The notes under the pieces were generated by a model. The model had not been told where the DNA came from and did not search any database. It saw nothing but the letters and a program-made list of their open reading frames with translations. Shown here one piece after another: positions 31,326-47,973 of a DNA stretch of 50,599 nucleotides. Every line of letters starts with the position of its first letter. Position 1 is the stretch's first letter. Source of the stretch: Pseudomonadota bacterium (GTDB lineage Bacteria; Pseudomonadota; Gammaproteobacteria; Burkholderiales; Rhodocyclaceae); assembly GCA_018241725.1 (NCBI GenBank), contig JAFEDI010000060.1:1-50599 (forward strand). Direction: 5' to 3'. The translations under genes and the position numbers were made by a program.

Positions 31326-33005
<1,680 letters not shown>

Positions 33006-33083
33006 GATGTCTCCTCCAGCGTCTTCCGCCGCTTGATAGGAATAATGATGGCCGGCGCAATGCCGGGCGGCGGGAGACAGGGT

Positions 33084-33132
33084 CTTATACCACGTGGCCG
33101 ATATGGGCCTGCGGACGCTCCGCACAGCGGAG
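33084..33132 (-). promoter_or_regulatory. Candidate dmpR promoter element with palindrome
   Basis: On the minus strand TATAAG (33084-33089) could be a -10 box, without a good -35. About 30 bases upstream is the hairpin-forming palindrome CTCCGC-ACA-GCGGAG (33118-33132), a possible operator. Confidence 0.3.
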
Positions 33133-33150
33133 TGCCGATTCCTCATCAGC

Positions 33151-33194
33151 TTGCGTTATAAGATTATTGGCGATAATAATACATAATCTCGAGA
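33151..33194 (+). promoter_or_regulatory. dmpQ promoter with TCTCGAGA operator (site 1)
   Basis: TTGCGT (33151-33156), a 17-base spacer and TAATAA (33174-33179) form a plausible sigma-70 promoter toward dmpQ. TCTCGAGA (33187-33194) lies just after the -10, around the expected transcription start, inside TAATCTCGAGAAAAA. The same 15-mer occurs at the dmpK promoter, and the core occurs at dmpB and at the GntR/glcG region. A repressor bound here would block dmpQ, and might also affect dmpR. Confidence 0.55.
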
Positions 33195-33263
33195 AAAATG
33201 AAACCGGACCTATTCGCCATCCAGAGTGAGCAATCCGGATCGATGAAGTGCCAGGAGGAGACC

Positions 33264-33638
33264 ATGGCCCAGAAGTACCTGATCCATATCGGAAACAGCG
33301 GTGAGGATTACACCTGCGATGCCGAGCTGAACCTGTTGCGCGGCATGGAAGTGCTGGGGCGGCGGGGTATCCCGGTTGGCTGCCGAGGCGGCGGCTGCGG
33401 GATCTGCAAGGTGGCGATCCAGTCCGGCAGCTACGAGGCACGCAAGATGAGCCGCGACTGCGTGAGCGCCGAAGAGGAGGCCAGCGGTGTGGTGCTGGCT
33501 TGTCGTGTCTTTCCCCGCGGCGAGATGTCCCTGACAGTGGTCGGCAAGATGGTCAAGGCGCTGGAGCGGGGAATGGAAAAAAACACGGGGGCGCCCGTGG
33601 ACGCCCCCGCTGTACCCCCGGCCAGGCCGGCAAGCTAG
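33264..33638 (+). CDS. dmpQ: Plant-type [2Fe-2S] ferredoxin (DmpQ/XylT type)
   Basis: A 124-residue chloroplast-type ferredoxin with cluster ligands Cys40, Cys45, Cys48 and Cys80 (CRGGGCGIC ... LAC). XylT/DmpQ ferredoxins reduce the oxidised active-site iron of catechol 2,3-dioxygenase and so reactivate it after attack by substituted catechols. The start at ATG 33264 follows AGGAGGAGACC. The Pro/Ala-rich tail after about residue 100 is longer than in DmpQ. In Pseudomonas dmpQ sits between dmpP and dmpB; here it is 6 kb away from the dioxygenase and divergent from dmpR. Confidence 0.9.
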   Translation: MAQKYLIHIGNSGEDYTCDAELNLLRGMEVLGRRGIPVGCRGGGCGICKVAIQSGSYEARKMSRDCVSAEEEASGVVLACRVFPRGEMSLTVVGKMVKALERGMEKNTGAPVDAPAVPPARPAS

Positions 33639-33648
33639 ACCGTCGGAC

Positions 33649-34644
33649 TCAGAATGGCTGCGGCCGCGGCGTCGCGTCGACGGACGGCGGCAGCATGGGC
33701 AGCTTGAAGGACGGCTGCTGGCCGGTGAGGGTCTTCAGGAAGGCGACGATCTTTGCGTTTTCCTCGGCGCTGAACTTGCGGCCCAGCTGCAGGCGACCCA
33801 TGGTATCCACCGCTTCGCCAAGGGTTGCCGCGCCGCCGTCGTGGAAGTACGGATAGGTGAGCTCCACGTTGCGCAGCGTGGGCACCTTGAACAGGAAGCG
33901 GTCCGCGTCCTTGCCGGTTACCGCGATGCGCCCTTCGGCCGGGCTGTTCGCCTTGTAGGCCTCCACCACTCCCATCTTCTGGAAGGAATTGCCACCGACG
34001 GCCGGGCCGTTGTGGCAGGCCACGCAGCCGCTGTCCTTGAACAGCTTGTAGCCGGCTAGCTCTTCCGTATTCAGCGCTTTCTTGTTGCCCTTCAACCACT
34101 GGTCGAAGCGCGAATTGGGCGTTACCAGCGTTTCTTCGAAGGCGGCAATCGCACCGGTGATGCGGTCCACGTTGACCTCGTCCGAACCGAAGGCCTTGCG
34201 GAAGGCCGTCACGTAGCCGGGGATGGTCTTCAGCGTATCGACGGCGAGTTCGTGGCTGAAGGCCATCTCGCCGGGGTTGGCGATCGGCCCGCCGGCTTGC
34301 GCCTTGAGGTCGGCCGCGCGGCCATCCCAGAACTGGGCCAGGTTATAGCGGGCATTGAGCACCGTCGGTGAATTGATCGGCCCTTTCTGCCAGCCGTGGC
34401 CGATGGAGCTCTTGAGGTTGTCGCTGCCGCCCATGGACAGGTTGTGGCAGGAGTTGCACGAGATGAAGCCCGACTTGGACAGGCGCGGATCGAAGAACAA
34501 GGCCTTGCCCAGTTCGACTACAGCCGGGTTGGTGACCTTGGGTGGCACGATTGGCTGGATCGGTTCGGTGGTCGGTGCCGCATGGGCGCTGCCGATGGCG
34601 CAAGCCGCGAGGCCGAGGATGGAAAGACTGTGGTTCAGGTTCAC
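33649..34644 (-). CDS. Dihaem cytochrome c peroxidase-family protein
   Basis: A 331-residue periplasmic protein with a signal peptide (...AIGSAHA, then APTT) and two haem c sites: CNSCH (63-67) and CVACH (207-211). TVLNARYNLAQFWDGRA and KVPTLRNVELTYPYFHDGG are bacterial CCP/MauG-family blocks. It is expected to reduce hydrogen peroxide with electrons from a small cytochrome. The start is GTG 34644, with AAGGAG seven bases before it. It lies in opposite orientation between dmpQ and dmpK, an unusual insertion into a phenol cluster. Oxidative stress from phenol or catechol oxidation is a plausible reason, but this is inference. Confidence 0.9.
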   Translation of the reverse strand: MNLNHSLSILGLAACAIGSAHAAPTTEPIQPIVPPKVTNPAVVELGKALFFDPRLSKSGFISCNSCHNLSMGGSDNLKSSIGHGWQKGPINSPTVLNARYNLAQFWDGRAADLKAQAGGPIANPGEMAFSHELAVDTLKTIPGYVTAFRKAFGSDEVNVDRITGAIAAFEETLVTPNSRFDQWLKGNKKALNTEELAGYKLFKDSGCVACHNGPAVGGNSFQKMGVVEAYKANSPAEGRIAVTGKDADRFLFKVPTLRNVELTYPYFHDGGAATLGEAVDTMGRLQLGRKFSAEENAKIVAFLKTLTGQQPSFKLPMLPPSVDATPRPQPF

Positions 34645-34868
34645 GAAGAACTCCTTGTGGATTTGAGGATGGCCGGTGGTGCCGCTTGGAAAGCCCGTAC
34701 GGCGAGTCCCGGATATTCATCCCGGAGGTTTAAGGAATCCTTAAGGAATATGCAAATGGATATCTTGTATGTCAAATGCCTGTTTTGGGTTGTTTCCGTA
34801 TCGATGCTCCCAGACGCGAGGGAAGCACCCGAGTGACTTAACCAGATCATCAAGCTGCGCTGCAGCAT

Positions 34869-34884
34869 TTGATCAATTGATCAA
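34869..34884 (+). promoter_or_regulatory. Candidate DmpR upstream activating sequence
   Basis: TTGATCAATTGATCAA is a perfect 16-bp palindrome made of two tandem TTGATCAA units. It resembles the inverted-repeat enhancer sites of XylR/DmpR-family activators and lies about 90 bases upstream of the best -24/-12 match. It does not fit the FNR pattern TTGAT-N4-ATCAA. Confidence 0.55.
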
Positions 34885-34889
34885 TCAAT

Positions 34890-34931
34890 AAAATCCGCTT
34901 TTTCTCGTAATCTCGAGAAAAAGCGGATTTT
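34890..34931. promoter_or_regulatory. Perfect 18-bp inverted repeat containing TCTCGAGA operator (site 2)
   Basis: AAAATCCGCTTTTTCTCG and its exact complement flank a 6-base loop (TAATCT). TCTCGAGA (34911-34918) straddles the loop and the right arm, within TAATCTCGAGAAAAA as at site 1. It lies between the putative activator site and the dmpK promoter. It could be an intrinsic terminator (the right arm ends in TTTTGTCTTTT on the plus strand), a looped operator, or both; position argues for control of the hydroxylase operon. Confidence 0.6.
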
Positions 34932-34960
34932 GTCTTTTCGGATCATGGGTTTGCTGGAAC

Positions 34961-34976
34961 TGGTACGGGGCTTGAT
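34961..34976 (+). promoter_or_regulatory. Candidate sigma-54 promoter of the phenol hydroxylase operon
   Basis: TGGTACG-N4-TTGAT matches the sigma-54 consensus TGGCACG-N4-TTGCW except at two positions, one being the normally conserved C of the -12 GC. Start of transcription would be near 34987, about 25 bases before the dmpK ATG. An alternative, AGGGAAG-N4-TTGCA at 34978-34993, has the intact GC but would leave almost no leader. Confidence 0.45.
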
Positions 34977-35011
34977 TAGGGAAGCCTGTTGCAGACCAGA
35001 CCGAGAACACG

Positions 35012-35278
35012 ATGACCGATCCGACCAGCCCTCCGCCCGTGGATGTGAACCGCAAGTACGTACGCCTGGTGGAGCGGCGCCCCGACGGCCTGGTGGAGTT
35101 CGAGTTCTCCATTTCCGACCCCGCGCTCTTCGTCGAGATGCTGTTGCCAGAGGCGGCCTACGAGGAGTTCTGCAAGACCAACCGGGTGATCCTCCTGGAG
35201 GGTTCCCGGCCGGAGGCGGAGGAGGACGGCGACTTCAACTGGAGCCTCCACGAGGCCACGCATCAACGCTTCAGATAA
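35012..35278 (+). CDS. dmpK: Phenol hydroxylase subunit P0 (DmpK)
   Basis: An 88-residue small protein, first gene of the hydroxylase operon. Residues VNRKYVRLVERRPDGLVEFEFSISDPALFVEML are typical of the DmpK/PoxR family, an assembly or auxiliary component thought to help iron loading of the oxygenase and not needed for turnover in vitro. Length is normal. It is followed after 52 bases by dmpL, and the whole K-L-M-N-O-P set runs without long gaps from one promoter region. Confidence 0.9.
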   Translation: MTDPTSPPPVDVNRKYVRLVERRPDGLVEFEFSISDPALFVEMLLPEAAYEEFCKTNRVILLEGSRPEAEEDGDFNWSLHEATHQRFR

Positions 35279-35330
35279 ACCGGCCGGGCCGCACGCCCGG
35301 AATTTGAATAGAAGAAGGAGGAGAGACACC

Positions 35331-36329
35331 ATGCAGATGGATCTGCGCACCGTCACCATCAAGCCGCAGCGGCAGACGTTCGACCACATCGCCCGCCGCA
35401 TTGGCGCTGACAAGGCAGCGACCCGCTACCAGGAAGGTACGCTGGAGGTTCAGGCGACCCACAACTTCCACTACCGGCCGACCTGGGATCCGGACCACGA
35501 GATCTTCGACGCCTCCCGCAGCGCGATCAAGATGGCCGACTGGTACGCCTTCAAGGACCCGCGCCAGTTCTACTACGGTGCCTATACCCTGGCCCGCGCC
35601 AAGCAGCAGGAAACCGCCGAGTCCAACTTCGACTTCGTCGAAGGCCGTGGTCTGGCCGACACCCTGCCGGCCGAGCTGAAGGACACCGTGCTCAAGCTGC
35701 TGCTGCCGCTGCGCCACGCAGCCTGGGGCGGCAACATGAACGCTGCCTTCATCACCGCCTACGGTTACGGCACCGCACTGACCCAGCCGTGCATCTACCA
35801 CTCCATGGACATGCTGGGCATCGCCCAGTACATCACCCGCGTCGGCCTGCTGCTCGGCGACGACGTGGAGGTGCTCGACACCGCCAAGCAGAGCTGGATG
35901 GAAGACAGTGCCTGGCAGGGCCTGCGCCGCTACGTGGAAGACTGTTTCGTGCTGAAGGACCCGCTGGAGGTCTTCGTCGCCCAGATGGTGGCGCTGGACG
36001 GCCTGCTGTACCCGCTGGTGTACGAAACCATCATCGACAACGTGCTCTCGTCGAAGGGCGGCACGCCGATCGCGATGCTCACCCAGTTCATGACCGACTG
36101 GTTTGCCGAAACAAGGAAGTGGGTGGACGCCACGGTGAAGACCGCCGCCGCCGAATCCGCCGACAACAAGGCCCAGATGGAAACCTGGATCACCCACTGG
36201 CGCGACCGCGCCGCCGCCGCGCTGATGCCGATCGCCCAGATCGCCCTTGGTAGCGAAGCCGACACCATCACCAGCGAAGTGGTGGACCAGTTCAACGCGC
36301 GCATGGCCAAGGCCGGCGTCAGCCTCTGA
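35331..36329 (+). CDS. dmpL: Phenol hydroxylase beta subunit P1 (DmpL)
   Basis: A 332-residue non-catalytic beta subunit of the bacterial multicomponent monooxygenase hydroxylase, which forms the (alpha-beta-gamma)2 complex with DmpN and DmpO. FDHIARRIGADKAATRYQEGT and HNFHYRPTWDPDHEIFD are family-specific. ATG 35331 is preceded by GGAGGAGA; an in-frame ATG at 35304 would add nine Arg-rich residues with no family match. It lacks the diiron carboxylate/His motifs, as expected. Highly biased codon use, in keeping with strong expression. Confidence 0.95.
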   Translation: MQMDLRTVTIKPQRQTFDHIARRIGADKAATRYQEGTLEVQATHNFHYRPTWDPDHEIFDASRSAIKMADWYAFKDPRQFYYGAYTLARAKQQETAESNFDFVEGRGLADTLPAELKDTVLKLLLPLRHAAWGGNMNAAFITAYGYGTALTQPCIYHSMDMLGIAQYITRVGLLLGDDVEVLDTAKQSWMEDSAWQGLRRYVEDCFVLKDPLEVFVAQMVALDGLLYPLVYETIIDNVLSSKGGTPIAMLTQFMTDWFAETRKWVDATVKTAAAESADNKAQMETWITHWRDRAAAALMPIAQIALGSEADTITSEVVDQFNARMAKAGVSL

Positions 36330-36340
36330 GAGGAAGCACT

Positions 36341-36610
36341 ATGTCCAAGGTATTCATCGCGCTGCAGACCAACGACGACACCCGCCAGATCATCCAGGCC
36401 ATCCTCGCCGACAACCCCCATGCCGTCTGCAACGAGCAGCCGGCGATGGTGAAGATCGACGCCGAGGGTTCGCTGGTCGTGCGCCGCTCGACCATCGAAG
36501 AGCTGATCGGCCGCGATTTCGACCTGCAGGAACTGCACATCAACCTGATTTCCCTCACGGGCAACGTCGACGAGACCGACGACGAGCTGACCCTGAGCTG
36601 GAACGCCTGA
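36341..36610 (+). CDS. dmpM: Phenol hydroxylase coupling protein P2 (DmpM)
   Basis: An 89-residue cofactorless effector protein (MmoB/DmpM family) that binds the hydroxylase and couples electron transfer to oxygen activation. MSKVFIALQTNDDTRQIIQAI and DDELTLSWNA are the conserved ends. It has one Cys and no metal motif. GAGGAAG precedes the ATG. It sits between dmpL and dmpN as in Pseudomonas CF600. Confidence 0.95.
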   Translation: MSKVFIALQTNDDTRQIIQAILADNPHAVCNEQPAMVKIDAEGSLVVRRSTIEELIGRDFDLQELHINLISLTGNVDETDDELTLSWNA

Positions 36611-36632
36611 ACCCTTCGAGGAGACACGCAAG

Positions 36633-38186
36633 ATGGACATGAAAGTCGGCAAGAAGAAGCTGGGCCTCAAGGAGAAGTACCAGCACATGACCCGCGGCCT
36701 GGGCTGGGAAACCACCTACCAGTCGATGGACGACGTGTTCCCCTTCGTCAAGTACGAGGGCATCAAGATCCATGACTGGGACAAGTGGGAAGACCCGTTC
36801 CGCCTGACCATGGATGCCTACTGGAAGTACCAGGCCGAGAAAGAGCGCAAGCTGTACGCGATCATCGACGCCTACGCCCAGAACAACGGCCACCTCAACG
36901 TCACCGATGCGCGCTACATCAACGCAATCAAGCTGTTCCTGAACGGCATCAGCCCGCTGGAATACATGGCCCATCGTGGCTTCGCGATGACCGGCCGCCA
37001 GTTCCCCGGCGTCGGCGCGCGAGTTGCGTGCCTGATGCAGTCTCTGGACGAGATCCGTCACGCCCAGACGCAGATCCATTCCCTCTCCAACTACAACAAG
37101 TACTACAACGGCTTCCACGAATACCGGCACATGCTGGAGCGCGTGTGGTACCTGTCGGTGCCGCGCTCCTTCTTCGACGACGCCGTTACCGCCGGCCCCT
37201 TCGAGTTCATGGTGGCGATCGGCTTCAGCTTCGAGTACGTGCTGACCAACCTGCTGTTCGTGCCCTTCGTGTCCGGTGCCGCCTACAACGGCGACATGGG
37301 CACCATGACCTTCGGCTTCTCCGCCCAGTCCGACGAAGCCCGCCACATGACTCTGGGCCTCGAAGTCATCAAGTTCGTGCTGGAGCAGGATCCGGACAAC
37401 CTGCCCATCGTGCAGCAGTGGATCGACAAGTGGACTTGGCGCGGTTACCGCGTGCTGACGCTGGTCGGCATGATGATGGACTACATGCTGCCCAAGCGGA
37501 TCATGAGCTGGAAGGAGGCCTGGGAGGTCTACTTCGAGGAGAACGGCGGTGCGCTGTTCAAGGACCTGGCCCGCTACGGCATCCGTCCGCCGAAGTGGCT
37601 GGACCAGATCGAGAAGGACAAGGACCACATCTCCCACCAGGCCTGGGCGACCTTCTACAACTACGCCGCGGCGTGCAACTTCCACACCTGGATTCCCACC
37701 GACGACGAACTGGACTGGCTGTCGCAGAAATACCCGAACAGCTTCGACAAGTACTACCGGCCGCGTCTGGAGCACTGGCGCGAGGAGGCAAAGAAGGGCA
37801 ACCGCTTCTACAACAAGACGCTGCCCATGCTGTGCCAGACCTGCCAGATTCCGATGATCTTCACTGAGCCGGGCGACCCGACGCAGATCTGCTACCGGGA
37901 GGTGGACTACAAGGACAACAAGTACCACTTCTGTTCCGACGGCTGCAAAGAGATCTTTGAGCACGAGCCGGAGAAGTACATCCAGGCCTGGCTGCCGGTG
38001 CACCAGATCTACCAGGGCAACTGCTTCGAGGAAGGCGTCGATCCGACCGCCGAGGGCTTCGACCCGTTGTCTGCGGTGCTCGACTACTACCACTTGGCCC
38101 AGGGGCGCGACAACCTCGACTTCGAAGGTTCCGAGGACCAGAAGAACTTCGAGATGTGGCGCGGTATGGCGACCAAGAACGCCTGA
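36633..38186 (+). CDS. dmpN: Phenol hydroxylase alpha subunit P3 (DmpN), diiron catalytic subunit
   Basis: A 517-residue oxygenase subunit. The two carboxylate-bridged iron motifs are intact: Glu110, then DEIRH with Glu140 and His143; and Glu201, then DEARH with Glu235 and His238. The C-terminal region carries a YHS-type zinc module with CQTCQIP and FCSDGCKE. It hydroxylates phenol (and methylphenols) to catechol using O2 and electrons from DmpP. Full length compared with DmpN. GAGGAG precedes the start. Confidence 0.97.
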   Translation: MDMKVGKKKLGLKEKYQHMTRGLGWETTYQSMDDVFPFVKYEGIKIHDWDKWEDPFRLTMDAYWKYQAEKERKLYAIIDAYAQNNGHLNVTDARYINAIKLFLNGISPLEYMAHRGFAMTGRQFPGVGARVACLMQSLDEIRHAQTQIHSLSNYNKYYNGFHEYRHMLERVWYLSVPRSFFDDAVTAGPFEFMVAIGFSFEYVLTNLLFVPFVSGAAYNGDMGTMTFGFSAQSDEARHMTLGLEVIKFVLEQDPDNLPIVQQWIDKWTWRGYRVLTLVGMMMDYMLPKRIMSWKEAWEVYFEENGGALFKDLARYGIRPPKWLDQIEKDKDHISHQAWATFYNYAAACNFHTWIPTDDELDWLSQKYPNSFDKYYRPRLEHWREEAKKGNRFYNKTLPMLCQTCQIPMIFTEPGDPTQICYREVDYKDNKYHFCSDGCKEIFEHEPEKYIQAWLPVHQIYQGNCFEEGVDPTAEGFDPLSAVLDYYHLAQGRDNLDFEGSEDQKNFEMWRGMATKNA

Positions 38187-38260
38187 CAGACAGGGGGCAC
38201 ATCCGGCCGGCGCAGGTCGCCGGCTGGCTCCCGATATAGGAAAAATACAAGGAGACAACC

Positions 38261-38620
38261 ATGGGCGTAGCCGCCATCAAGGAATATTCCTTCGAGTCCG
38301 CCGACCGGCTCGAGAACTTTCACGGCAACCAGCTGCTGTACATAGGCTGGGACCAGCATCTGCTGTTCTGTGCGCCGTTCTGCCTGCCGTTTCCGCCGAG
38401 CATGCGTTTCGGCGACATCATCGACAAGGTGCTGCCGGGCGTGTTCGGTTATCACCCGGACTTCGCGAAGGTCGACTGGAGCAAGGTCGAATGGCTGAAG
38501 TCCAGCCAGCCCTGGCAGCCGGACTTCAACAAGACGCTGGCCGAACTGGGGCTCAAGCACAAGGACGTTCTGCGCTTCCGCACCCCCGGCCTTACCGGCA
38601 TCAAGGGTTCTGCGAGCTGA
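38261..38620 (+). CDS. dmpO: Phenol hydroxylase gamma subunit P4 (DmpO)
   Basis: A 119-residue gamma subunit completing the hydroxylase hexamer. MGVAAIKEYSFESADRLENFHGNQLLYIGWDQHLLFC and FCLPFPPSMRFGDIIDKVLPGVFGYHPDF are family-typical. AAGGAGA precedes the ATG. It is separated from dmpN by 74 bases (38187-38260) in which I see no terminator, and from dmpP by three bases. Confidence 0.95.
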   Translation: MGVAAIKEYSFESADRLENFHGNQLLYIGWDQHLLFCAPFCLPFPPSMRFGDIIDKVLPGVFGYHPDFAKVDWSKVEWLKSSQPWQPDFNKTLAELGLKHKDVLRFRTPGLTGIKGSAS

Positions 38621-38623
38621 ATC

Positions 38624-39679
38624 ATGTCCTACGAGCTGACCATCGAACCCCTCGGCCAGACCATTGAGGTCGAGGAGGGGCAGACCATTCTCGATGCCTC
38701 CCTGCGTGCCGGTATCTGGCTGCCCCACGCGTGCTGCCACGGTCTGTGTGCCACCTGCAAGGTGCAGGTGCTGGATGGGGAAGTGGACCACGGTGAAGCG
38801 TCGAGCTTCGCGTTGATGGATTTCGAGCGCACCGAGGGTAAGACGCTGGCCTGTTGCGCACGCCTCGAAAGCGACGTGACCATCGAAGCCGAGATCGAGG
38901 AAGAGCCGGACGCAGAATCCATCCCGGTGAAGGACTTCCCCGGCACCGTGAAGCGCATCGAGCAGCTCACGCCGACCATCAAGGGCATCTTCATCGAGCT
39001 CGACGAGGCCATCCATTTCCAGGCCGGCCAGTACATCAACCTGGACATTCCCGGCCTTGGCATCAGCCGCGCCTTCTCGCTGGCCAACGTGCCATCGACA
39101 GGGCGGGAGATCGAGCTCAACGTGCGCATCGTGCCCGGCGGCACCGGCACTGGCTACCTCCACGAGAAGCTCGCCGAAGGCGACCGGATGAAGCTGTCCG
39201 GCCCCTACGGCCGCTTCTTCGTGCGCAAATCGGCCAATGTCCCGTTGCTGTTCATGGCAGGCGGCTCGGGGCTGTCGAGCCCACGCAGCATGATCCTCGA
39301 CCTGCTGGCCGAAGGCAGCACGCTGCCGATCACGCTGGTGTACGGTCAGCGCAGCCGCGCCGAGCTGTACTACCACGACGAGTTCCTGGCGCTGGCGGAG
39401 AAGCACCCCAACTTCACCTACGTGCCGGCCTTGTCGGACGAGCCGGTGGACTCCGCTTGGCAAGGCTTCCGGGGTTATGTGCACGAAGCGGCCAAGGCCC
39501 ATTTCGACAACGACTTCCGTGGCCGCAAGGCCTACCTGTGCGGCCCGCCGATGATGATCGACGCTTGCATCTCGACCCTGATGCAGGGGCGCTTGTTCGA
39601 GAACGACATCTATACGGAGAAGTTCTTCTCGGCGGCGGATGCGCAGCAGGTGCGCAGCCCGTTGTTCAAGCGGGTTTGA
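38624..39679 (+). CDS. dmpP: Phenol hydroxylase reductase P5 (DmpP)
   Basis: A 351-residue NADH:acceptor reductase. The N-terminal ferredoxin domain binds [2Fe-2S] through Cys37, Cys42, Cys45 and Cys77 (CCHGLCATC ... LACC). The FAD domain has RAFSLAN and GPYGRFF, and the NAD domain has MAGGSGLSSPRSMILDL and CGPPMMID. It moves electrons from NADH to the DmpN diiron centre. It starts three bases after dmpO and is the last gene of the hydroxylase set; dmpB follows after 154 bases that carry a separate promoter. Confidence 0.96.
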   Translation: MSYELTIEPLGQTIEVEEGQTILDASLRAGIWLPHACCHGLCATCKVQVLDGEVDHGEASSFALMDFERTEGKTLACCARLESDVTIEAEIEEEPDAESIPVKDFPGTVKRIEQLTPTIKGIFIELDEAIHFQAGQYINLDIPGLGISRAFSLANVPSTGREIELNVRIVPGGTGTGYLHEKLAEGDRMKLSGPYGRFFVRKSANVPLLFMAGGSGLSSPRSMILDLLAEGSTLPITLVYGQRSRAELYYHDEFLALAEKHPNFTYVPALSDEPVDSAWQGFRGYVHEAAKAHFDNDFRGRKAYLCGPPMMIDACISTLMQGRLFENDIYTEKFFSAADAQQVRSPLFKRV

Positions 39680-39704
39680 TCAGTAAATCGATATAAAAAT
39701 AAAA

Positions 39705-39745
39705 TCTCGAGAATAAATTGACTTATCGAGATGAGCGTTTAAGAT
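39705..39745 (+). promoter_or_regulatory. dmpB promoter with paired TCTCGAGA-type operators (site 3)
   Basis: TTGACT (39718-39723), 16 bases, TAAGAT (39740-39745) form a sigma-70-like promoter. TCTCGAGA (39705-39712) is upstream of the -35 and a second half-site CGAGAT starts at 39727, between -35 and -10. The two CGAGA elements are exactly 19 bp apart, the same as at site 4. The placement around the -35 box suits repression. Confidence 0.6.
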
Positions 39746-39833
39746 AAACACAGTGCTCGCCGGATCGGGAAACCCGCCGTAAGGAGGCTTCCCGGGCGAT
39801 GCCGGCATCCACAAGGACAAGAGGAGATTACGA

Positions 39834-40763
39834 ATGGCAATGACCGGAGTTCTGCGTCCCGGCCACATGCAGCTGCGCGTGCTGGATCTGGAAGAGGGCG
39901 TCAATCACTACAAGAATGTGCTGGGCCTCATCGAAACTGGCCGCGACGCCCAAGGCCGCGTGTACTTCAAGGCCTGGGACGAGCGCGATCACAACAGCCT
40001 GATCCTGCGCGAAGCGGAATCCGCCGGCATGGACTTCTTCGCCTTCAAGGTGGCGGACAAGGCCACGCTGGAAAAGCTCAATAGCGATCTGCGGGCCTAC
40101 GGCGTCCAGACCGAGCGCATCCCCGCCGGCGAACTGCTGGAAACCGGCGAGCGCGTGCGCTTCGAGATTCCGTCCGGCCACCAGATCGAGCTCTACGCCG
40201 AGAAGACCGACGTCGGCAACGGCATGAAGTATGTGAACCCGGACCCGTGGACACCTGACGCCGAGCGCGGCATCGCGCCGGTGCGCCTGGACCACTGTCT
40301 GCTCTACGGCCCGGACATCGAGAAGGTGCAGAAGCTGTTCGAGGACGTGCTGGGCTTCTACCTCGTCGAGCGCGTGCTGATGGAAGACGGCGAGACCAAT
40401 CTGGCGATCTGGCTGTCCTGCTCCCACAAGGCCCACGACATTGCCTTCGTGCGCCACCCGGAGCCGGGCAAGCTGCACCACGTGTCCTTCCTGCTCGATA
40501 CCTGGGAGAAGGTTCTGCGCGCCGCCGACATCATGTCCATGAACAAGGTGTCCATCGACATCGGCCCGACCCGCCACGGCGTGACCCGCGGCACCACGAT
40601 CTACGCCTTCGACCCGTCCGGCAACCGCTTCGAAACCTTCTGTGGCGGCTACCAGCCTTACCCCGACTACGCGCCGATCACCTGGACCTGGGAAGAGGTC
40701 GGCACCGGCGTGTTCTATCACGACCGCAAGCTGAACGAGCGTTTCCTGACGGTCGTTTCCTGA
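39834..40763 (+). CDS. dmpB: Catechol 2,3-dioxygenase
   Basis: A 309-residue type I extradiol dioxygenase that opens catechol to 2-hydroxymuconic semialdehyde. Fe(II) ligands by comparison with XylE are His154 (RLDHCLLYG), His216 (KLHHVSFLL) and Glu267 (FETFCGGY). His201, His248 and Tyr273 correspond to second-sphere catalytic residues. Two vicinal-oxygen-chelate modules are visible, MRPGHMQLRVLD-type at the start and RLDHCLLYGPD. The start follows AGAGGAGATTACGA. Here it is separated from the lower pathway by about 5 kb of regulatory genes. Confidence 0.96.
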   Translation: MAMTGVLRPGHMQLRVLDLEEGVNHYKNVLGLIETGRDAQGRVYFKAWDERDHNSLILREAESAGMDFFAFKVADKATLEKLNSDLRAYGVQTERIPAGELLETGERVRFEIPSGHQIELYAEKTDVGNGMKYVNPDPWTPDAERGIAPVRLDHCLLYGPDIEKVQKLFEDVLGFYLVERVLMEDGETNLAIWLSCSHKAHDIAFVRHPEPGKLHHVSFLLDTWEKVLRAADIMSMNKVSIDIGPTRHGVTRGTTIYAFDPSGNRFETFCGGYQPYPDYAPITWTWEEVGTGVFYHDRKLNERFLTVVS

Positions 40764-40771
40764 CGCCTGAA

Positions 40772-40796
40772 GGCGGCCGGGCTGCACCCGGCCGCC
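40772..40796. terminator. Bidirectional hairpin after dmpB
   Basis: Perfect 10-bp stem GGCGGCCGGG / CCCGGCCGCC with 5-nt loop, between the convergent ends of dmpB and the PAS-GGDEF-EAL gene. No T-run; termination is inferred from stem strength and place. Confidence 0.65.
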
Positions 40797-40838
40797 CCTC
40801 CGATGGGACAAGGAAATCCGCAGTTTCCTGGCTGTCCT

Positions 40839-43800
40839 TCAATGACGCCGGCCGGCCGCGGTGCCCGCGGTCAGGCCAGCACCCAGCGCGGCCGCCTCGA
40901 CAGGGCGGCCCAGCAGGTAGCCCTGCACCTCGTGGCAGCCGATGCCCGCCAGGAAATCCAGCTGTTCGCGGGTTTCCACTCCTTCGGCAATCACCCTCAG
41001 CTTCAGCGACTGGCCCATGCGCACGATGGCTTCGGCGATGGCCCGGTCTTCCTCGTCGTCGGGGATGTCCTTGACGAAGGAGCGGTCCACCTTCAGCTTG
41101 CTGACCTGGAAGCGTTTCAGGTAGGCCAGGCTCGAATAGCCGGTGCCGAAATCGTCAATGGCCACCGACATGCCCAGATTGCGCACATAGGCGATCAGCT
41201 CGATGAAACGGGCGGCGTCGCTCATCAGCGCCGATTCGGTCAGCTCCAGTTCGATCAATTGCGGCGCCACGCCGGTGTCCCGCAGTACGGCGGCCAGCGT
41301 GGCGGAGAAGTCATCCCGGTGCAGTTGCACCGCCGACACATTGACGGCGATCTTGATGGGCTGGCCGCTGTCGGCCCATTCCCGGGCCTGCCGGCAGGAT
41401 TCGTGCAGCGCCCATTCGCCTATCGGCAGGATCAGGCCGGTGTCCTCGGCCAGAGGAATGAAGCGTGCCGGGCTGATTTCACCGTATTGGGGGGAGCGCC
41501 AGCGCATCAGGGCTTCGGCGCCGATCATGTGGCTGTCGCCGATGGCGAACTGGGGCTGGTAGACCAGGCGAAGCTCGCCGGTCCCGAGGGCACGGCGCAG
41601 ATGCGTGGTGAGGGACAGGCGCTCGGCCGAGTCCTGGTTCATGCGTTCGTCGAAGAAGCTGAAGGTGGCGCGGCCGCGGGCCTTGGCATGGTACATGGCC
41701 ATGTCGGCCTTCTTCAGCAGGGTGTCGAAGTCCTGGCCATCGCCTGGCGCCACGGCGACGCCCAGTGTTCCGGTGGCGGTCAGCGCGTGGCCGCCGAGGT
41801 CGAAGGGCTTTTCCAGGGCCCGGCAGATCTTCTCTGCTACAGCGGCGTAGAAGCGCGTCGACTCGTCCCCTTCGACGAGAATGATGAACTCATCGCCGCC
41901 GAGGCGGCTGATCGTATCGCTGTGCCGCAGGCTGCCGGCCAGGCGGTTGGTTACGGCCATCAGCAGGTCGTCGCCGATGGCATGGCCGAGGGTATCGTTG
42001 ATGTGCTTGAACTGATCCAGGTCGAGGAAGAACATTCCCAGCGTGCCATTGTTGCGGACGCTGCGCTGGAAGGACTGTTCGAACCGGTCACGCAGCAGGA
42101 TGCGGTTGGGGAGGCCGGTCAGCGCGTCATGGTGGGCCATGTACTGGATCTGCGCCTCGGCAGCTTTGCGGGCGCTGATGTCACTGAACGCGGCCACGTA
42201 ATGGGCGACGCTGCCGTCGGGGTTGCGCACGACGCGGATGGTCAGCCACTTGGGGTAGTGGCGGCCGCTCTTGTGGCGGTCCACGATCTCGCCTTCCCAG
42301 CGGTCGTCCTGCTCCAGGGCGTCCCACAGGGCCCTGTAGAAGCCGGCGTCGTGCTGGCCGGACTTGAGCATGGACGGAGTCTTGCCCAGCACTTCGGCGG
42401 CGCCGTAGCCCGTGATGGTGGTGAAGGCCGAATTGACGCTTTCGATGCGGTTGTCCGCATCGGTGACCATCAGTGCCTCGTTGCTGTGGTTGAAGACCAG
42501 CTGTGCCAGTTCCAACTGGGCATGCTGCTCGCGCTGGCGGGTGATGTCGCTGAAGACCCAGATCGAGCCTTCGCCGCCACTGCGGGCATCCAGCGGGCGG
42601 CCGGACAGGCGGATCCACAAGGGGCTGCCGTCCTTGCGAACCATGCGGATGTCGCCTTCACTGTAACCCCGGCTGGCCAGATCGCGGTAGATGCGTCCGC
42701 CCACCTCCAGATAGTCGGCGTGGCTCGGATAGAGGATCTCGGTACGCTGGCCGATCAGGTCGGACGGGGAATGGAAGCCGAAGATCGCCGCCATGTGCTG
42801 GTTGGCATCGAGGATCAGGCGGTCCCGGCAGAAGATGATGCCGACGTGGGCGTTGTCGAAGATCGCCCGTTGCTGGACCAGCAGCCGGCCGATGCGGGCT
42901 TCGCCTTCCTTAAGGGACGTGACGTCGCTGACGGTGAGCACGAAGCCTTCGTCGGGCATCGGGAAGCGCCCCAACTCCAGTTCCGCGCCGTCGTCGGCGT
43001 GCTGCTCAAAGCGTGTGGCGCGGGTCTGCGGGCTGAGGCCGGGCGGGCACAGGCGGGCGACCACGGCGCTGTGGCGACGCATGGTCGCAAGGGGGCTGCC
43101 CGTTTCGGCCAGGTGGGTTGGCAGGGCGAGCAGCGTGAAGAAGCGCCGGTTGCAGGCCACCAGATGTTCGTCCTGACCGAATACCGCGATGCCCTGGTCG
43201 ATGCTGTCCAGCGTGGACTGCAGCAACTGGGACTTGCGGGCCAGGGCTTGCTGGCGCAGCAGGGCCTCCTCCGCCTTCAGGTCGGTCACGTCTGAATAGA
43301 TGCCCACCAGGCCGCCGTCGTCCATGCGTCGTTCGCGGATCTGAAGGATCTGTCCCGACGGCAGCTTCAGCTCGCTGCGCTCGCGCCTGTTCCGGCAGGC
43401 CTGCAGGCGGTGGGGGAGGGTGGGGTCGGTGGCGCAGGCGGCGAGCAGCTCGCGAAAAGGACGCCCGCCGAGGTGGCCGCCAAGCCCCCACAGGCGGCGG
43501 AAAGCCTCGTTGCACAGCAGGATGCGGTCGTCGGCATCGAACAGCGCGAAGCCGTCGGACATGTTGTCCATCGCCGCCTCCAGCTGGTGGCGGGCTGCGC
43601 TGGCTTCGGAGGACATCTCGCGCAGGGCCTTCAGTGTGGCAACCAGCTCCTCGGTGCGCTGGCGGATCTGCTCCTCCAGCATGAAGGTGGTCTGCAGCAG
43701 GCCGTAGTCCTGTCCGGGGGCGGAGGGGTTGCTTTCGGCCTGGTAAACCAGGGCCTCGATGATGCGGTCCCGGCGCGCTATCTCCGCGCGCAGGCCGGCC

Positions 43801-43841
43801 GCATCGTCCGGGGCGCAGCGCAGGTCTTCGGTACGGCTCAT
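40839..43841 (-). CDS. Multi-PAS GGDEF-EAL c-di-GMP signalling protein
   Basis: A 1000-residue soluble protein: coiled-coil-like start (about 15-90), four PAS-like domains (about 92-190, 210-310, 325-435, 445-558), GGDEF (648-652, with I-site RHSD at 639-642) and EALMR (776-780) with DDFGTGYSSL later. The fourth PAS reads FNHSNEALMVTDADNRIESVN, typical of bacterial hybrid cyclases. Its ATG overlaps the stop of the FIST-domain gene (ATGA), so the two are translationally coupled. It is placed inside the phenol cluster and may link aromatic or redox sensing to motility or biofilm state, which is inference from position. Confidence 0.92.
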   Translation of the reverse strand: MSRTEDLRCAPDDAAGLRAEIARRDRIIEALVYQAESNPSAPGQDYGLLQTTFMLEEQIRQRTEELVATLKALREMSSEASAARHQLEAAMDNMSDGFALFDADDRILLCNEAFRRLWGLGGHLGGRPFRELLAACATDPTLPHRLQACRNRRERSELKLPSGQILQIRERRMDDGGLVGIYSDVTDLKAEEALLRQQALARKSQLLQSTLDSIDQGIAVFGQDEHLVACNRRFFTLLALPTHLAETGSPLATMRRHSAVVARLCPPGLSPQTRATRFEQHADDGAELELGRFPMPDEGFVLTVSDVTSLKEGEARIGRLLVQQRAIFDNAHVGIIFCRDRLILDANQHMAAIFGFHSPSDLIGQRTEILYPSHADYLEVGGRIYRDLASRGYSEGDIRMVRKDGSPLWIRLSGRPLDARSGGEGSIWVFSDITRQREQHAQLELAQLVFNHSNEALMVTDADNRIESVNSAFTTITGYGAAEVLGKTPSMLKSGQHDAGFYRALWDALEQDDRWEGEIVDRHKSGRHYPKWLTIRVVRNPDGSVAHYVAAFSDISARKAAEAQIQYMAHHDALTGLPNRILLRDRFEQSFQRSVRNNGTLGMFFLDLDQFKHINDTLGHAIGDDLLMAVTNRLAGSLRHSDTISRLGGDEFIILVEGDESTRFYAAVAEKICRALEKPFDLGGHALTATGTLGVAVAPGDGQDFDTLLKKADMAMYHAKARGRATFSFFDERMNQDSAERLSLTTHLRRALGTGELRLVYQPQFAIGDSHMIGAEALMRWRSPQYGEISPARFIPLAEDTGLILPIGEWALHESCRQAREWADSGQPIKIAVNVSAVQLHRDDFSATLAAVLRDTGVAPQLIELELTESALMSDAARFIELIAYVRNLGMSVAIDDFGTGYSSLAYLKRFQVSKLKVDRSFVKDIPDDEEDRAIAEAIVRMGQSLKLRVIAEGVETREQLDFLAGIGCHEVQGYLLGRPVEAAALGAGLTAGTAAGRRH

Positions 43842-45007
43842 CGTCCGGGCCCCTTGCCAAAGGCGATGCCGGTGAAGGTCTGGTTGAGGTGCAGGCCGCG
43901 GAATTGCTCGCCAAACGTGTTGAAGCCGATGACGCGGCCCTTGGCGAAACAGCGTCCCACCGCGTCGGCAAGGCCCGTTTCGGTGGCCGCCAGGCGCCGC
44001 AGGATGCAGTCACAGCCGAGGATCAGCTCCGTCTCGCCGACTGCTTTGGAGGCGCTGTCGAGGGCCTTGTCCAGATTGCTCAGAAGGTCTTCGCCGTGGG
44101 CAATCTTGAAGACAATGCCGCGGTCGATGGCACAGAAGAAGTCCAGGCTGCCGTCCGGGTTGGCGCGCTGGATGGAACGCACGAAATCGGCGCCGCCGAT
44201 GCGTACGAGCAACGGGTTGGCGGCGAAGACAGCCGGCGTCAGCTGCGCGACGCCGACGCCGAGGGCGCGGGCGTATTCATCCGCGGCGGGGCAGCCGTTC
44301 AGTTCGGTGACCCGGCGCTCGGCGGGACTTGCGCCAGTGACGATCAGCCGTTCGTCAGTGGGAGTGAAGTGCTGAGTCTGGAACACATCCAGCCGGCGGT
44401 GGCTGACGCCTACCAGCAGCACGGCCGCGTTATCCACCAGGCGCCCCTTGTAGATCACCCGCGTATCGACGAAGTGCAGGTCATCCCCGGCCGAGCCGCC
44501 GGACAGGGGAATGCCGCCAAGGCCGTCGTGGAAGGCGCGGGCGACGCTTTCCTCGCGGCCGCACAGGCCGTCCACCAGCATGAAGGCGAAGCAGGACAGG
44601 CCGTCGAGGCGGCTGTGGCGGGTCTGCAGGGCGTTGCGCAGGTCGCGGGCGAAGGCCGCCATGCGGTGCGGATCGAGGCGGTCGAGGCCGTCGAGCAGAC
44701 CGATCTCGAAATCGATCACATCGTCGCTGAGGGAGGCACCGGCCAGGCTGGCCTGCTGGTAGCCGCGCGGTCCGATCTCTCCGGCCGTGGTACAGCCGAT
44801 CAGCGGCGTCTGCCCGAAGGCGTCGGCAAGGCCGGCCTCCAGTTGTTCCGGCGCGAAATTGCTGGAGGCGAACACCACCGACAGGCGATCCGGGGCGGGG
44901 GCCAGCTTTTCGGCGAGTTGGCGAGCGGCCGCAGTCGCGTCCGCATGATGGCTTTCGCCGACGCGGATGCCCTTTGCCGGGACTCCGTTGGCAGGGTGGG
45001 GCGTCAT
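43838..45007 (-). CDS. FIST N/C-domain sensory protein
   Basis: A 389-residue protein with the FIST_N pattern early (LSVVFASSNFAPEQLEAGLADAFGQTPLIGCTTAGEIG) and a FIST_C domain at the end (CDCILRRL, GFNTFGEQFRGLHLNQT). FIST proteins are small-molecule sensors, proposed to bind amino acids or similar ligands, and commonly pair with c-di-GMP or chemotaxis proteins. The ATG at 45007 follows GAGGAGA; upstream in-frame residues are not family-like. It is coupled to the multi-PAS GGDEF-EAL gene and probably supplies its input. The ligand is unknown. Confidence 0.88.
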   Translation of the reverse strand: MTPHPANGVPAKGIRVGESHHADATAAARQLAEKLAPAPDRLSVVFASSNFAPEQLEAGLADAFGQTPLIGCTTAGEIGPRGYQQASLAGASLSDDVIDFEIGLLDGLDRLDPHRMAAFARDLRNALQTRHSRLDGLSCFAFMLVDGLCGREESVARAFHDGLGGIPLSGGSAGDDLHFVDTRVIYKGRLVDNAAVLLVGVSHRRLDVFQTQHFTPTDERLIVTGASPAERRVTELNGCPAADEYARALGVGVAQLTPAVFAANPLLVRIGGADFVRSIQRANPDGSLDFFCAIDRGIVFKIAHGEDLLSNLDKALDSASKAVGETELILGCDCILRRLAATETGLADAVGRCFAKGRVIGFNTFGEQFRGLHLNQTFTGIAFGKGPGR

Positions 45008-45147
45008 TGTAGTTTTGTCTCCTCGGCGTGGCACGTCTTCGCGGCCACTACGCGCCTGCGTGGGCGCGTTACAGGGAGATTAACGGAGCCGCTGGTGTAT
45101 GTCTTTAGTGATATCTCACGAAAGTGGGTGAATAGCCCGGCTTTGCG

Positions 45148-45858
45148 CTAGTTGATGAAGTCCGCCGGCAACTGACGCACAGCGTCCAGTGTGCGCAGGA
45201 TGTGATCGGACAGGATGCGCGTCGCCTCGGCACTGTTGCGGGCGAGGGCTGCATCGACGATGGCCTGGTGCTCGGCGTGGACATCCCGCGGGATCGGCTG
45301 GCGGAACAGGGACAGGCGGCGGTAGCGCTCGGACTGGTGGTACAGGATGTTCTGGAAGTGGCGGATCCAGCGCGATGGGCAGGCCGAGATGAGCACCTCG
45401 TGGAAGGCCCGGTTGCGCAGCTCCCATTCCTCGCGGGTGCCCTTGGCGCCTTCGACGAGCTTTTCCTCGGCGCGGGACAGCATGTGGAAAGCGGCCACCA
45501 CGTTGGCTTCCCAGGTGTCGTCGCCGAGCTCGATGGACTGCTGCAGTGCGGAGGTTTCGAGCAGCACGCGGGTGCGGGTGATGTCCTCGAAGTCGTCCAG
45601 GGAAATCGGCGCCACGCGGAAGCCGCGTTGCCCCTGGGCCACCACCAGCGCGTCGGTGACGAGCAACTGCAACGCTTCGCGCAGCGTGCCGGCACCCACT
45701 TCATATTGATCCTTCAGGTGCTCGACCCGCAGTTTTTCGCCTGGGCGATGCAGGCCTTCGATGATGTCCCGGCGCAGCTGGCGGTACGCCGCCTCGGCCA
45801 GGGTCTTGGGTTCGTCGGCCTCGCTGGCGAGGTCGGTGCTGCTGACTAGGTCGTTCAT
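45148..45858 (-). CDS. GntR-family (FCD) transcriptional regulator, AphS/BphS-like
   Basis: A 236-residue regulator: winged helix-turn-helix at about 20-85 (TLAEAAYRQLRRDIIEGLHRPG, GAGTLREALQLLVTDALV, GQRGFRVAPIS) and the all-helical FCD ligand domain at about 90-225. FCD members bind small acids. AphS of Comamonas testosteroni and BphS are GntR repressors of phenol and biphenyl genes, and the location between dmpB and the lower pathway fits that role. Divergent from the glcG-dmpCDE operon across a region carrying the TCTCGAGA operator, so it probably controls both itself and that operon. Confidence 0.88.
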   Translation of the reverse strand: MNDLVSSTDLASEADEPKTLAEAAYRQLRRDIIEGLHRPGEKLRVEHLKDQYEVGAGTLREALQLLVTDALVVAQGQRGFRVAPISLDDFEDITRTRVLLETSALQQSIELGDDTWEANVVAAFHMLSRAEEKLVEGAKGTREEWELRNRAFHEVLISACPSRWIRHFQNILYHQSERYRRLSLFRQPIPRDVHAEHQAIVDAALARNSAEATRILSDHILRTLDAVRQLPADFIN

Positions 45859-45954
45859 GGTGTGGAGTTCCGGTGTTTCTGGCGGTGCCTCGCGGGCGCC
45901 CGTCGCTTGTTATGAATTCTAGCCGAACCGGCTTGAAGCGATCATAATCAAAAA

Positions 45955-45998
45955 TCTCGAGAAAAACTGTTGACGTCGAGATAAGAAGGAAATATCGT
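45955..45998 (+). promoter_or_regulatory. Lower-pathway promoter with paired TCTCGAGA-type operators (site 4)
   Basis: TCTCGAGA (45955-45962) and CGAGAT (from 45977) have CGAGA elements 19 bp apart, as at site 3. TTGACG (45970-45975) with TATCGT (45993-45998, 17-base spacer) makes a plausible promoter toward the glcG-like gene, with the second half-site between -35 and -10. The region also serves the divergent GntR gene, so autoregulation is likely. Confidence 0.6.
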
Positions 45999-46031
45999 TC
46001 CATCAACGTCACTGATTCAGGACTGCCCACG

Positions 46032-46475
46032 ATGAGCCAGCCTTCCGCCACCCCGCTTTCCGTTCCCCAGGCCGTGATCTCCGCCGAGGCGGCCGCCCTT
46101 GCGCTGCAGGCGGCGGTGGCGCACGCCAACAAGATCGGCGTGCGCATCAACGTGGCGGTGGCCGACAGCGGCGGCAACCTGGCCGGCTTCCTGCGCATGC
46201 CGGGCGCCTTCGTGCAGTCCATCGACATCGCCATCGACAAGGCCTACACGGCCGCGGGATTCGGTTTCTCGACCAAGGACTGGATGTCCGTCATCGGCCA
46301 TGACGAAGGGATGAAGCTGGGCTTCTCCGCGCGGCCGCGCCTGGTGGTTTTCGGTGGTGGCCTGCCGATCCGCAGCGCGGACGGCTTGATCGGCGGCATC
46401 GGTGTCTCCGGTGCATCCGAAGCCCAGGACGAGGAATGCGCGCGGGCGGCCCTCAAGGCCATCGGCGCCGAGTGA
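46032..46475 (+). CDS. GlcG/HbpS (DUF336) family protein
   Basis: A 147-residue protein of the GlcG/HbpS-like fold: VAHANKIGVRINVAVADSGGNLAGFLRM, then AIDKAYTAAGFG and the end LPIRSADGLIGGIGVSGASEAQDEECARAAL are family-typical. Members bind haem or small cofactors, and are common next to aromatic and glycolate catabolic genes; their role there is unknown. It is the first gene of the lower-pathway operon, 37 bases ahead of dmpC. Confidence 0.9.
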   Translation: MSQPSATPLSVPQAVISAEAAALALQAAVAHANKIGVRINVAVADSGGNLAGFLRMPGAFVQSIDIAIDKAYTAAGFGFSTKDWMSVIGHDEGMKLGFSARPRLVVFGGGLPIRSADGLIGGIGVSGASEAQDEECARAALKAIGAE

Positions 46476-46512: not shown

Positions 46513-47973
46513 ATGAAACTGATCAAGAACTTCATCAACGGAGAATTCGTCGAGGCCGCCGGCGGCCGCCTCTTCGAGAAGCGTTCCCCGCTGGACAACA
46601 GCGTCATCGCCCAGGTCAGCGAAGCCGGCCTGCCCGAGGTGAACGCGGCGGTCGCCGCCGGCCACGCGGCGCTGGAAGGCGAGTGGGGCCGCATCACCGT
46701 CGCCGACCGTGTCGAGCTGCTGTATGGCGTGGCCAACGAGATCAACCGCCGCTTCGAGGACTTCCTGGCGGCTGAAGTGGCCGACACGGGCAAGCCGCGC
46801 AGCCTGGCCAGCCACCTGGACATCCCCCGCGGCGCGGCCAACTTCAAGATCTTCGCCGACGTGGTGAAGAACGTCCCCACCGAGTTCTTCGAGATGGCCA
46901 CGCCGGATGGCCGTGGCGCGATCAACTACGCGGTGCGCCGCCCGGTCGGCGTGGTTGGCGTGGTGTGCCCGTGGAACCTGCCGCTGCTGTTGATGACCTG
47001 GAAGGTCGGCCCAGCGCTGGCCTGCGGCAATGCGGTGGTGGTCAAGCCCTCCGAGGAAACCCCGCAGACCGCTACGCTGCTCGGCGAGGTGATGAACGCG
47101 GTCGGTATCCCGAAGGGTGTCTACAACGTCGTGCATGGTTTCGGCCCGAACTCCGCCGGCGAATTCCTGACCCGCCACCAGGGCGTCAATGCGATCACCT
47201 TCACCGGCGAAACCCGTACCGGCGCTGCAATCATGAAGGCGGCCTCCGACGGTGCCCGTCCGGTTTCCCTGGAAATGGGCGGTAAGAACCCGGCCATCGT
47301 GTTCGCCGATGCCGACCTGGATGCGGCGATCGAAGGCACGCTGCGATCCTGCTTTGCCAACTGCGGTCAGGTCTGCCTCGGCACCGAGCGCGTGTATGTG
47401 GAGCGCCCGCTGTTCGACACCTTCGTCGCCCGTCTGAAGGAAGGCGCCGAGAAGCTGGTCGTCGGCCTGCCCGACAACCCGGAAACCGGCATGGGCCCGC
47501 TGATCTCCCAGGAGCACAAGCAGAAGGTGCTGTCCTACTACCGCAAGGCGGTGGAAGAGGGCGCCACCGTCGTCACCGGCGGCGGCGTGCCCGACATGCC
47601 TGGCAGCCTGAGCGAAGGCGCCTGGGTCCAGCCGACCATCTGGACCGGCCTCGGCGACGAAGCCGCCATTGCCCGCGAAGAAATCTTCGGACCCTGCACG
47701 CTGGTGATGCCCTTCGACAGCGAAGAGGAAGTCGTCCGCCGCGCCAACAACACCACCTACGGCCTCGCCGCTTCGGTGTGGACCAAGGATGTGACCCGCG
47801 CCCACCGCGTCGCCGGCCGTCTGGAAGTGGGCCTGGTGTGGGTCAACTCCTGGTTCCTGCGCGACCTGCGCACGCCCTTCGGTGGTGCCAAGCAGTCCGG
47901 AATCGGCCGCGAAGGTGGTGTGCATTCCCTCGAGTTCTACACCGAACTCAAGAACGTCTGCGTCAAGCTCTGA
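46513..47973 (+). CDS. dmpC: 2-hydroxymuconic semialdehyde dehydrogenase
   Basis: A 486-residue NAD-dependent aldehyde dehydrogenase that oxidises 2-hydroxymuconic semialdehyde to 4-oxalocrotonate (the oxidative branch of meta-cleavage). Catalytic Cys288 (NCGQVCLG), general base Glu254 (SLEMGGKNP), Asn155 (CPWN) and NAD-contact Lys178 (VKPSEE) are in place, and TFTGETRTG is the nucleotide-binding turn. Length equals DmpC/XylG. The start follows AGAAGGA. Confidence 0.96.
   Translation: MKLIKNFINGEFVEAAGGRLFEKRSPLDNSVIAQVSEAGLPEVNAAVAAGHAALEGEWGRITVADRVELLYGVANEINRRFEDFLAAEVADTGKPRSLASHLDIPRGAANFKIFADVVKNVPTEFFEMATPDGRGAINYAVRRPVGVVGVVCPWNLPLLLMTWKVGPALACGNAVVVKPSEETPQTATLLGEVMNAVGIPKGVYNVVHGFGPNSAGEFLTRHQGVNAITFTGETRTGAAIMKAASDGARPVSLEMGGKNPAIVFADADLDAAIEGTLRSCFANCGQVCLGTERVYVERPLFDTFVARLKEGAEKLVVGLPDNPETGMGPLISQEHKQKVLSYYRKAVEEGATVVTGGGVPDMPGSLSEGAWVQPTIWTGLGDEAAIAREEIFGPCTLVMPFDSEEEVVRRANNTTYGLAASVWTKDVTRAHRVAGRLEVGLVWVNSWFLRDLRTPFGGAKQSGIGREGGVHSLEFYTELKNVCVKL

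Follow-up and report, generated by a model that had tools for sequence, protein, structure and literature searches.

Four candidate AphS-type operators, three of them in 19-bp arrays, in the phenol degradation cluster of a Zoogloea-type genome

The phenol degradation cluster on contig JAFEDI010000060.1 of the Rhodocyclaceae assembly GCA_018241725.1 carries the 8-mer TCTCGAGA in four promoter regions, which raises the question of which regulator reads these sites. Within the window, that is, the whole stretch of 50,599 nucleotides analysed here, exact matches were found at 33187, 34911, 39705, and 45955 and nowhere else, as stated in a preliminary description of this DNA. All four are located outside open reading frames (ORFs), and TAATCTCGAGAAAAA is common to sites 1 and 2. 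The estimate that chance would provide at most one copy also held, as shuffles contained 0.75 copies on average and 3 at most, and none of 100 had four or more. The whole genome (5.93 Mb; labelled G000 below, where C denotes a contig, G a genome, and L a locus) contains 47 copies, or approximately 0.4 per 50.6 kb, so that four copies within 12.8 kb represent a local excess. The genome-wide count thus upheld the clustering in the window, but 43 of the copies lie elsewhere and the bare 8-mer is therefore unspecific. The four sites are very probably operators of a GntR/FCD protein encoded in the same cluster (45148..45858, minus strand), a repressor of the AphS/BphS type. Judged by its sequence, TCTCGAGA is the core of the published AphS/BphS operator, and the regulon appears to be real but of an already described kind.

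The GntR/FCD protein, which the preliminary description had favoured as the binder because of its position, remains the best candidate, supported by the conservation of the sites, their co-occurrence with its gene, and its grouping with AphS/BphS. Both PF00392 (GntR winged helix-turn-helix) and PF07729 (FCD) score above the cut-off. In a tree of 35 rows, several of which are long-branched and placed with uncertainty, a 100/99 branch holds 27 rows comprising the window protein, 10 aphRS-ordered rows, BphS of strain CJ2, and 15 others, while seven distant FCD rows and L269 fall outside. The nearest named relative comes from Zoogloea sp. LCSB751, and the genome itself is of the Zoogloea type; it contains a single match to the protein at E ≤ 1e-40. 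The protein stretch RVEHLKDQYEVGAGTLREAL is identical in the window, L066, and L074. Membership in CsiR (NF008576) was rejected, with 170.9 bits against a curated cut-off of 218. The cluster combines a dmpR-type activator with phenol hydroxylase genes, as in AphS/BphS phenol and biphenyl clusters. The aphS-type gene is located 12 kb from dmpR and thus not in the usual (non-strict) aphRS operon order, and 76%-identical GntR proteins in L048 and L049 are encoded directly after DmpR.

The regulon had been considered likely undescribed, which does not stand: Suvorova & Gelfand 2019 published the 14-nt palindrome AAATmTCGAkATTT as the AphS/BphS motif of Betaproteobacteria, including Azoarcus and Thauera (PMC6449761). 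According to the parts of this article considered here, multiple AphS/BphS sites imply cooperative binding, the majority of aph genes in Azoarcus BH72 are predicted to be under AphS control, with dual control by AphR at aphKLMN, and ben genes are linked to AphS; the same parts state no 19-bp spacing, and Zoogloea is absent from the article text. They also quote an AphR motif similar to the upstream activating sequences (UAS) of the window. The core mTCGAk fits all four window sites, and the full palindrome lies within three mismatches of two of them, which is no more than expected by chance. In the whole genome, the published consensus matches 21 places at up to two mismatches, compared to 2 for the reversed control.

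As proposed, the 8-mer marks the promoters of one regulon, but the full unit is larger and consists of 19-bp-spaced arrays at three of the four promoters. Multiple sites per promoter, a trait of AphS/BphS, are present at dmpQ, dmpB, and glcG and not at dmpK. Site 1, the AphS-like 14-mer TAATCTCGAGAAAA at the dmpQ promoter (33184..33197, plus strand; exact 8-mer match), is preceded by an AT-rich GATAATAATAC element and has a partner CG 19 bp upstream (33171-33172), giving CG positions of -19 and 0. Site 3 (39683..39734, plus strand) comprises three AphS-like cores with CG steps of 19 bp (-19, 0, +19) and overlaps a sigma-70-like promoter of dmpB, TTGACT-16-TAAGAT (39718..39745, plus strand); a second candidate at 39676-39705 likewise overlaps it. 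Between aphS and glcG, site 4 (45933..46003, plus strand) has CGs at -19, 0, +19, and +38, with two strong and two weak cores, and overlaps the sigma-70-like glcG promoter TTGACG-17-TATCGT (45970..45998, plus strand). The promoter scan behind these assignments returned 6 candidates where 1.9 were expected. Sites 3 and 4 belong to larger arrays, ATCTCGA-N15-TCGAGAT (39704-39732 and 45954-45982), for which the genome contains exactly these two exact matches, the next best having two mismatches.

Site 2 is built differently. This AphS-like 14-mer (34908..34921, plus strand) lies between the DmpR/AphR-type UAS GATCATCAAG ... TTGATCAATTGATCAA (34845..34884, plus strand) and a -24/-12-like element of dmpK (34961..34976, plus strand), for which we take TGGTACGGGGCTTGAT on the basis of the general consensus, as read from the sequence and confirmed by no scan. 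Site 2 forms the loop and the 3' arm of a perfect inverted repeat with a 20-bp stem and a 6-nt loop (34888..34933, plus strand, 46 nt; RNA fold of -29.1 kcal/mol, z -8.6).

Footprinting of upstream regions showed that related clusters retaining the GntR gene have also retained the sites. The input comprised 79 loci found by GntR and 3 plasmid loci, of which 52 of 82 were scored (36 Rhodocyclales-type, 15 Burkholderiales-type, and 1 plasmid); regions of 380 bp around gene starts were used, those shorter than 200 bp or with no mapped start were omitted, and near-identical loci were kept. In Rhodocyclales-type loci, the TCGA core was found upstream of glcG in 34/35, dmpB in 26/30, dmpK in 14/18, dmpQ in 11/13, and dmpR in 4/4 cases (expected 2.3, 2.1, 1.2, 0.7, and 0.2), as well as upstream of gntR in 33/36 (expected 2.1), the latter being mostly glcG sites viewed from the opposite side. 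Burkholderiales-type loci contain the core at dmpK in 13/13 cases, at dmpQ in 1/9, at gntR in 1/16, at glcG in 0/5, and at dmpB in 0/9. As a control, it was present upstream of distant FCD genes in 1 of 28 loci, and it was found in none of 11 paralogous dmp loci and none of three further stretches of the same genome. At genus level, 17 of the 18 close dmpR loci, our own included, carry site 1, and the remaining one is truncated at the relevant end (12 paralogue loci were left unscanned). The dmpK core occurs in 14 of 19 loci of the genus, again including our own and twice in the form ATCGAT.

The spacing is conserved together with the cores. Among promoters with a clear main core, the only ones taken into these counts, 32 of 34 unique glcG flanks and 24 of 27 dmpB flanks have a CG at a distance of exactly 19 bp on the downstream side, as do 21 of 26 dmpQ flanks on the upstream side. 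When the set was thinned to 18 representatives per class and a good core was demanded, 12/18, 8/18, and 9/18 remained for glcG, dmpB, and dmpQ, all exceeding the maxima of 500 shuffles over all offsets (4, 5, and 4, respectively). The thinned dmpK set reached 3, inside its shuffle maximum of 4, and none of the 13 Burkholderiales-type dmpK promoters has a CG at either 19-bp offset. A 19-bp rule for every AphS promoter was accordingly rejected, as it is not seen at dmpK in either type of locus. For the remaining promoters, the spacing rule may be new.

The operators co-occur with gntR across the family. When our own genome was searched with a profile built from 17 non-Zoogloea glcG sites, the top-ranking match was site 4 (E 2.4e-9), followed by site 3 (0.003); site 1 came fourth with a non-significant 0.29, and site 2 was not among the five matches. 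In 395 family genomes, the profile matched 94 at E ≤ 0.05 and the GntR protein 87 at E ≤ 1e-70, with 83 genomes having both, 4 GntR only, and 11 the operator only. At E ≤ 1e-6, the composite operator was found in 70 of the 395 genomes, all of which encode the GntR protein, and in none of the 308 that lack it. In 3 of these 70 (G030, G059, and G086), the best operator and GntR matches are located on different contigs, the operators preceding glcG or dmpC and, in G059, lying beside a 46%-identical GntR gene.

The regulon had also been described as local, which proved too narrow: another contig of the same genome holds a fifth site. This site, C9:157207, matches the consensus exactly and forms a 19-bp pair. 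It precedes a second gene for 2-hydroxymuconic semialdehyde dehydrogenase, with benABC and a further DmpR-type gene nearby. A pattern derived from this site matched 17 of 23 genus genomes (reversed control: none); all 17 are among the 19 genomes with a close GntR, and none is among the four that lack one (G002, G003, G009, and G020). The same dehydrogenase gene adjoins the C9-type site in 8/8 relatives fetched, out of 25 matched places. The surrounding region (L210, G000:C9:155200-167000) brings together benABC, an MFS transporter, the second 2-hydroxymuconic semialdehyde dehydrogenase, and the DmpR-type regulator; its AphS-like sites are L210:2010 and L210:8583.

Several observations weigh against assigning all four sites to the AphS-type protein. 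With up to three mismatches allowed, the published consensus picks out sites 3 and 4 alone in the window; chance would give 1.06 matches, and two were reached in 29 of 100 shuffles. It differs from sites 1 and 2 at four positions, and their right flank is AAAA instead of ATTT. This poor fit can be attributed to the Zoogloea sites ending in AAAA or AATA, not ATTT. Only sites 4 and 3 have a profile E-value below 0.01, site 2 lacks a 19-bp partner, and 5 of the 19 genus loci have no core at dmpK. Furthermore, 17 of the 87 genomes with GntR lack the composite operator at E ≤ 1e-6, and G009 contains site 1 (L193), yet its assembly, which is 80% complete, yielded no GntR. As most operators adjoin gntR and the training sites stem from the same family, shared descent and linkage explain part of the co-occurrence.

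The most substantial alternative concerns site 2, which might be part of an intrinsic terminator or a cruciform shielding the dmpK promoter, with the 8-mer match being a by-product of the hairpin. The strong fold of the perfect 20-bp stem, which also forms in the closest loci (L111, L112, and L114), would fit this explanation, as would the T-rich stretch following the hairpin and an ORF on the same strand whose end, by eye, appears to lie upstream in these three loci. Fourteen of the 19 loci nevertheless have the core in the corresponding position, whereas the long hairpin folds in only four of the 19, namely the window and the three closest loci (L113 folds a shorter form), and a terminator scan did not list 34888-34933; we thus regard a hairpin origin of site 2 as unlikely.

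Binding of the motif by a different regulator, such as another FCD protein or a nucleoid protein preferring A-tracts, would be compatible with the A-rich right flank that all four sites have on the same strand, and binding by the GntR protein is itself deduced. Yet the co-occurrence of the motif with window-type GntR proteins across 395 genomes, the presence of only one such gene in our own genome, the fit of the sites to the published AphS core, and the absence of the motif from paralogous dmp loci make a different binder improbable. Mere chance clustering of an 8-mer, for which one could cite the 47 genomic copies and the 27 of the other 43 that fall in ORFs, is practically negligible given that no shuffle reaches four copies and that the sites are conserved across genera.

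If the sites are indeed AphS operators, a mechanism can be proposed in which binding, repression, and the inducer at the window sites are all inferred. Without inducer, palindromes resembling AAATCTCGAGAAAA would be bound by AphS dimers. The dmpB and glcG-dmpC promoters would carry these dimers on adjacent palindromes, 19 bp apart, that cover the -35 element. In front of dmpQ, a pair would be placed next to the AT-rich promoter element. In each case, sigma-70 RNA polymerase would be kept off. At the sigma-54 promoter of dmpK, where a single AphS site separates the DmpR sites from the -24/-12 element, AphS might instead hinder DNA looping or IHF. A scan with a general IHF consensus matched 14 of 37 dmpK regions against 0.3 expected; we do not use it as a strong argument because the window dmpK region was unmatched. 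A ring-cleavage product, e.g. 2-hydroxymuconic semialdehyde, would then release AphS, by analogy with 2-hydroxy-6-oxo-6-phenylhexa-2,4-dienoate (HOPDA) and BphS.

This arrangement resembles AphS of Comamonas testosteroni TA441 (PhcS of strain R5), a GntR-family repressor acting alongside an AphR/DmpR-type activator, with the same TCGA-centred core in the refined motif (PMC6449761). AphS of TA441 represses aphKLMNOP and binds around a putative IHF site, outside the UAS (PMC3063778). In TA441, aphS lies just downstream of aphR, while the window gene is oriented divergently to glcG, within the lower pathway, and the window has additional sites at dmpB, dmpQ, and glcG. The TA441 motif quoted in PMC3063778, TATCGTAT, differs in its letters from the window motif. 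In Acidovorax sp. KKS102, operators covering the promoter start mediate repression by BphS, and HOPDA causes BphS to dissociate (PMC10282184, PMC11448139). BphS of Polaromonas naphthalenivorans CJ2 is 48.9% identical to the window protein and falls in the same clade; unlike the protein studied here, the BphS proteins of KKS102 and CJ2 control biphenyl genes, and a pattern search found no core beside CJ2 bphS in L209. The closest parallels also include the AphS regulons predicted for Azoarcus sp. BH72, Thauera sp. MZ1T, and Dechloromonas aromatica RCB (PMC6449761). A phenol hydroxylase cluster has been reported in Zoogloea oleivorans, with no operator given in the passages considered (PMC7012976).

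The gene names used throughout agree between the preliminary description and our profile searches, which identified an XylR/DmpR-type sigma-54 activator, the ferredoxin DmpQ, DmpK, DmpM, DmpO, DmpP, DmpE, catechol 2,3-dioxygenase, 2-hydroxymuconic semialdehyde dehydrogenase, an HbpS-like GlcG, and the GntR/FCD regulator. The dmpR/aphR-type gene with XylR_N and sigma-54 activator domains occupies ORF 31326..33146 (minus strand), although its start is probably located further in. Its long N-terminus contains stops in the matches of G007, G011, G016, and G019, and several others align only from residue ~37-41. Similarly, the ATG right after site 1 is probably not the start of dmpQ (profile-identified, revised to 33264..33638, plus strand), as relatives align, by eye, from the ATG at 33264. 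The phenol hydroxylase operon begins with dmpK (35012..35278, plus strand), followed further downstream by dmpB for catechol 2,3-dioxygenase (39834..40763, plus strand; TIGR03211 above cut-off), the glcG/HbpS-like gene as the first of the lower-pathway genes (46032..46475, plus strand), and dmpC for 2-hydroxymuconic semialdehyde dehydrogenase (46513..47973, plus strand; TIGR03216 above cut-off). A di-haem cytochrome c peroxidase (CCP_MauG) gene (33649-34644, minus strand) lies between dmpQ and dmpK; it is absent from the 1.5 kb upstream of dmpK in L111, L112, and L114 and adjoins dmpQ in L178-L180. Between dmpB and gntR, the region 40839-45034 (minus strand) encodes a 1000-aa PAS/GGDEF/EAL protein and a NosP-type FIST protein (below the NosP cut-off). 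As dmpB directly adjoins gntR in L039, L041, and L042, this pair looks like a lineage-specific insertion.

Outside the window, 27 of the 43 further 8-mer copies fall in ORFs and 16 do not, according to a crude composition-based ORF script, with some of the 16 becoming ORF-internal under a looser rule. With both strands considered, 6 of the 47 copies show the extended form AATCTCGAGAA, namely the four window sites, C95:38943, and C9:163783. Neighbouring genes, the only basis of inspection here, include IclR and SBF genes at C12:70419, hemerythrin at C95:38943, and a DmpR-type gene beside C9:163783; none of the three was counted as a regulon member. Two closely alike contexts, GAATCTCGAGATGTT, in L217 and L247 (G000:C31:3133 and G000:C130:2597) suggest a repeated element carrying the 8-mer. 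The composite pattern with one mismatch also occurs in L101, L102, and L108, which are loci of distant FCD genes, and a AATCGATT-type core in L159 and L160, two loci of a 42%-identical GntR paralogue.

Taken together, the distribution of the cores suggests a difference between lineages, with operators at the dmpR/dmpK region in Burkholderiales-type loci and added lower-pathway operators in Rhodocyclales-type loci. Tentatively, and with some reservation, we propose that AphS of Zoogloea, Thauera, and Azoarcus reads two to four sites in a fixed 19-bp array at sigma-70 promoters and just one site at the sigma-54 promoter; two blocking mechanisms would then serve one pathway under a spacing rule undescribed in the literature covered. 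The AphS regulon, a described repressor regulon of aromatic degradation, would thereby be extended to Zoogloea with operators defined base by base and with an unlinked target added, and the 19-bp spacing would provide a precise, testable rule for cooperative binding.

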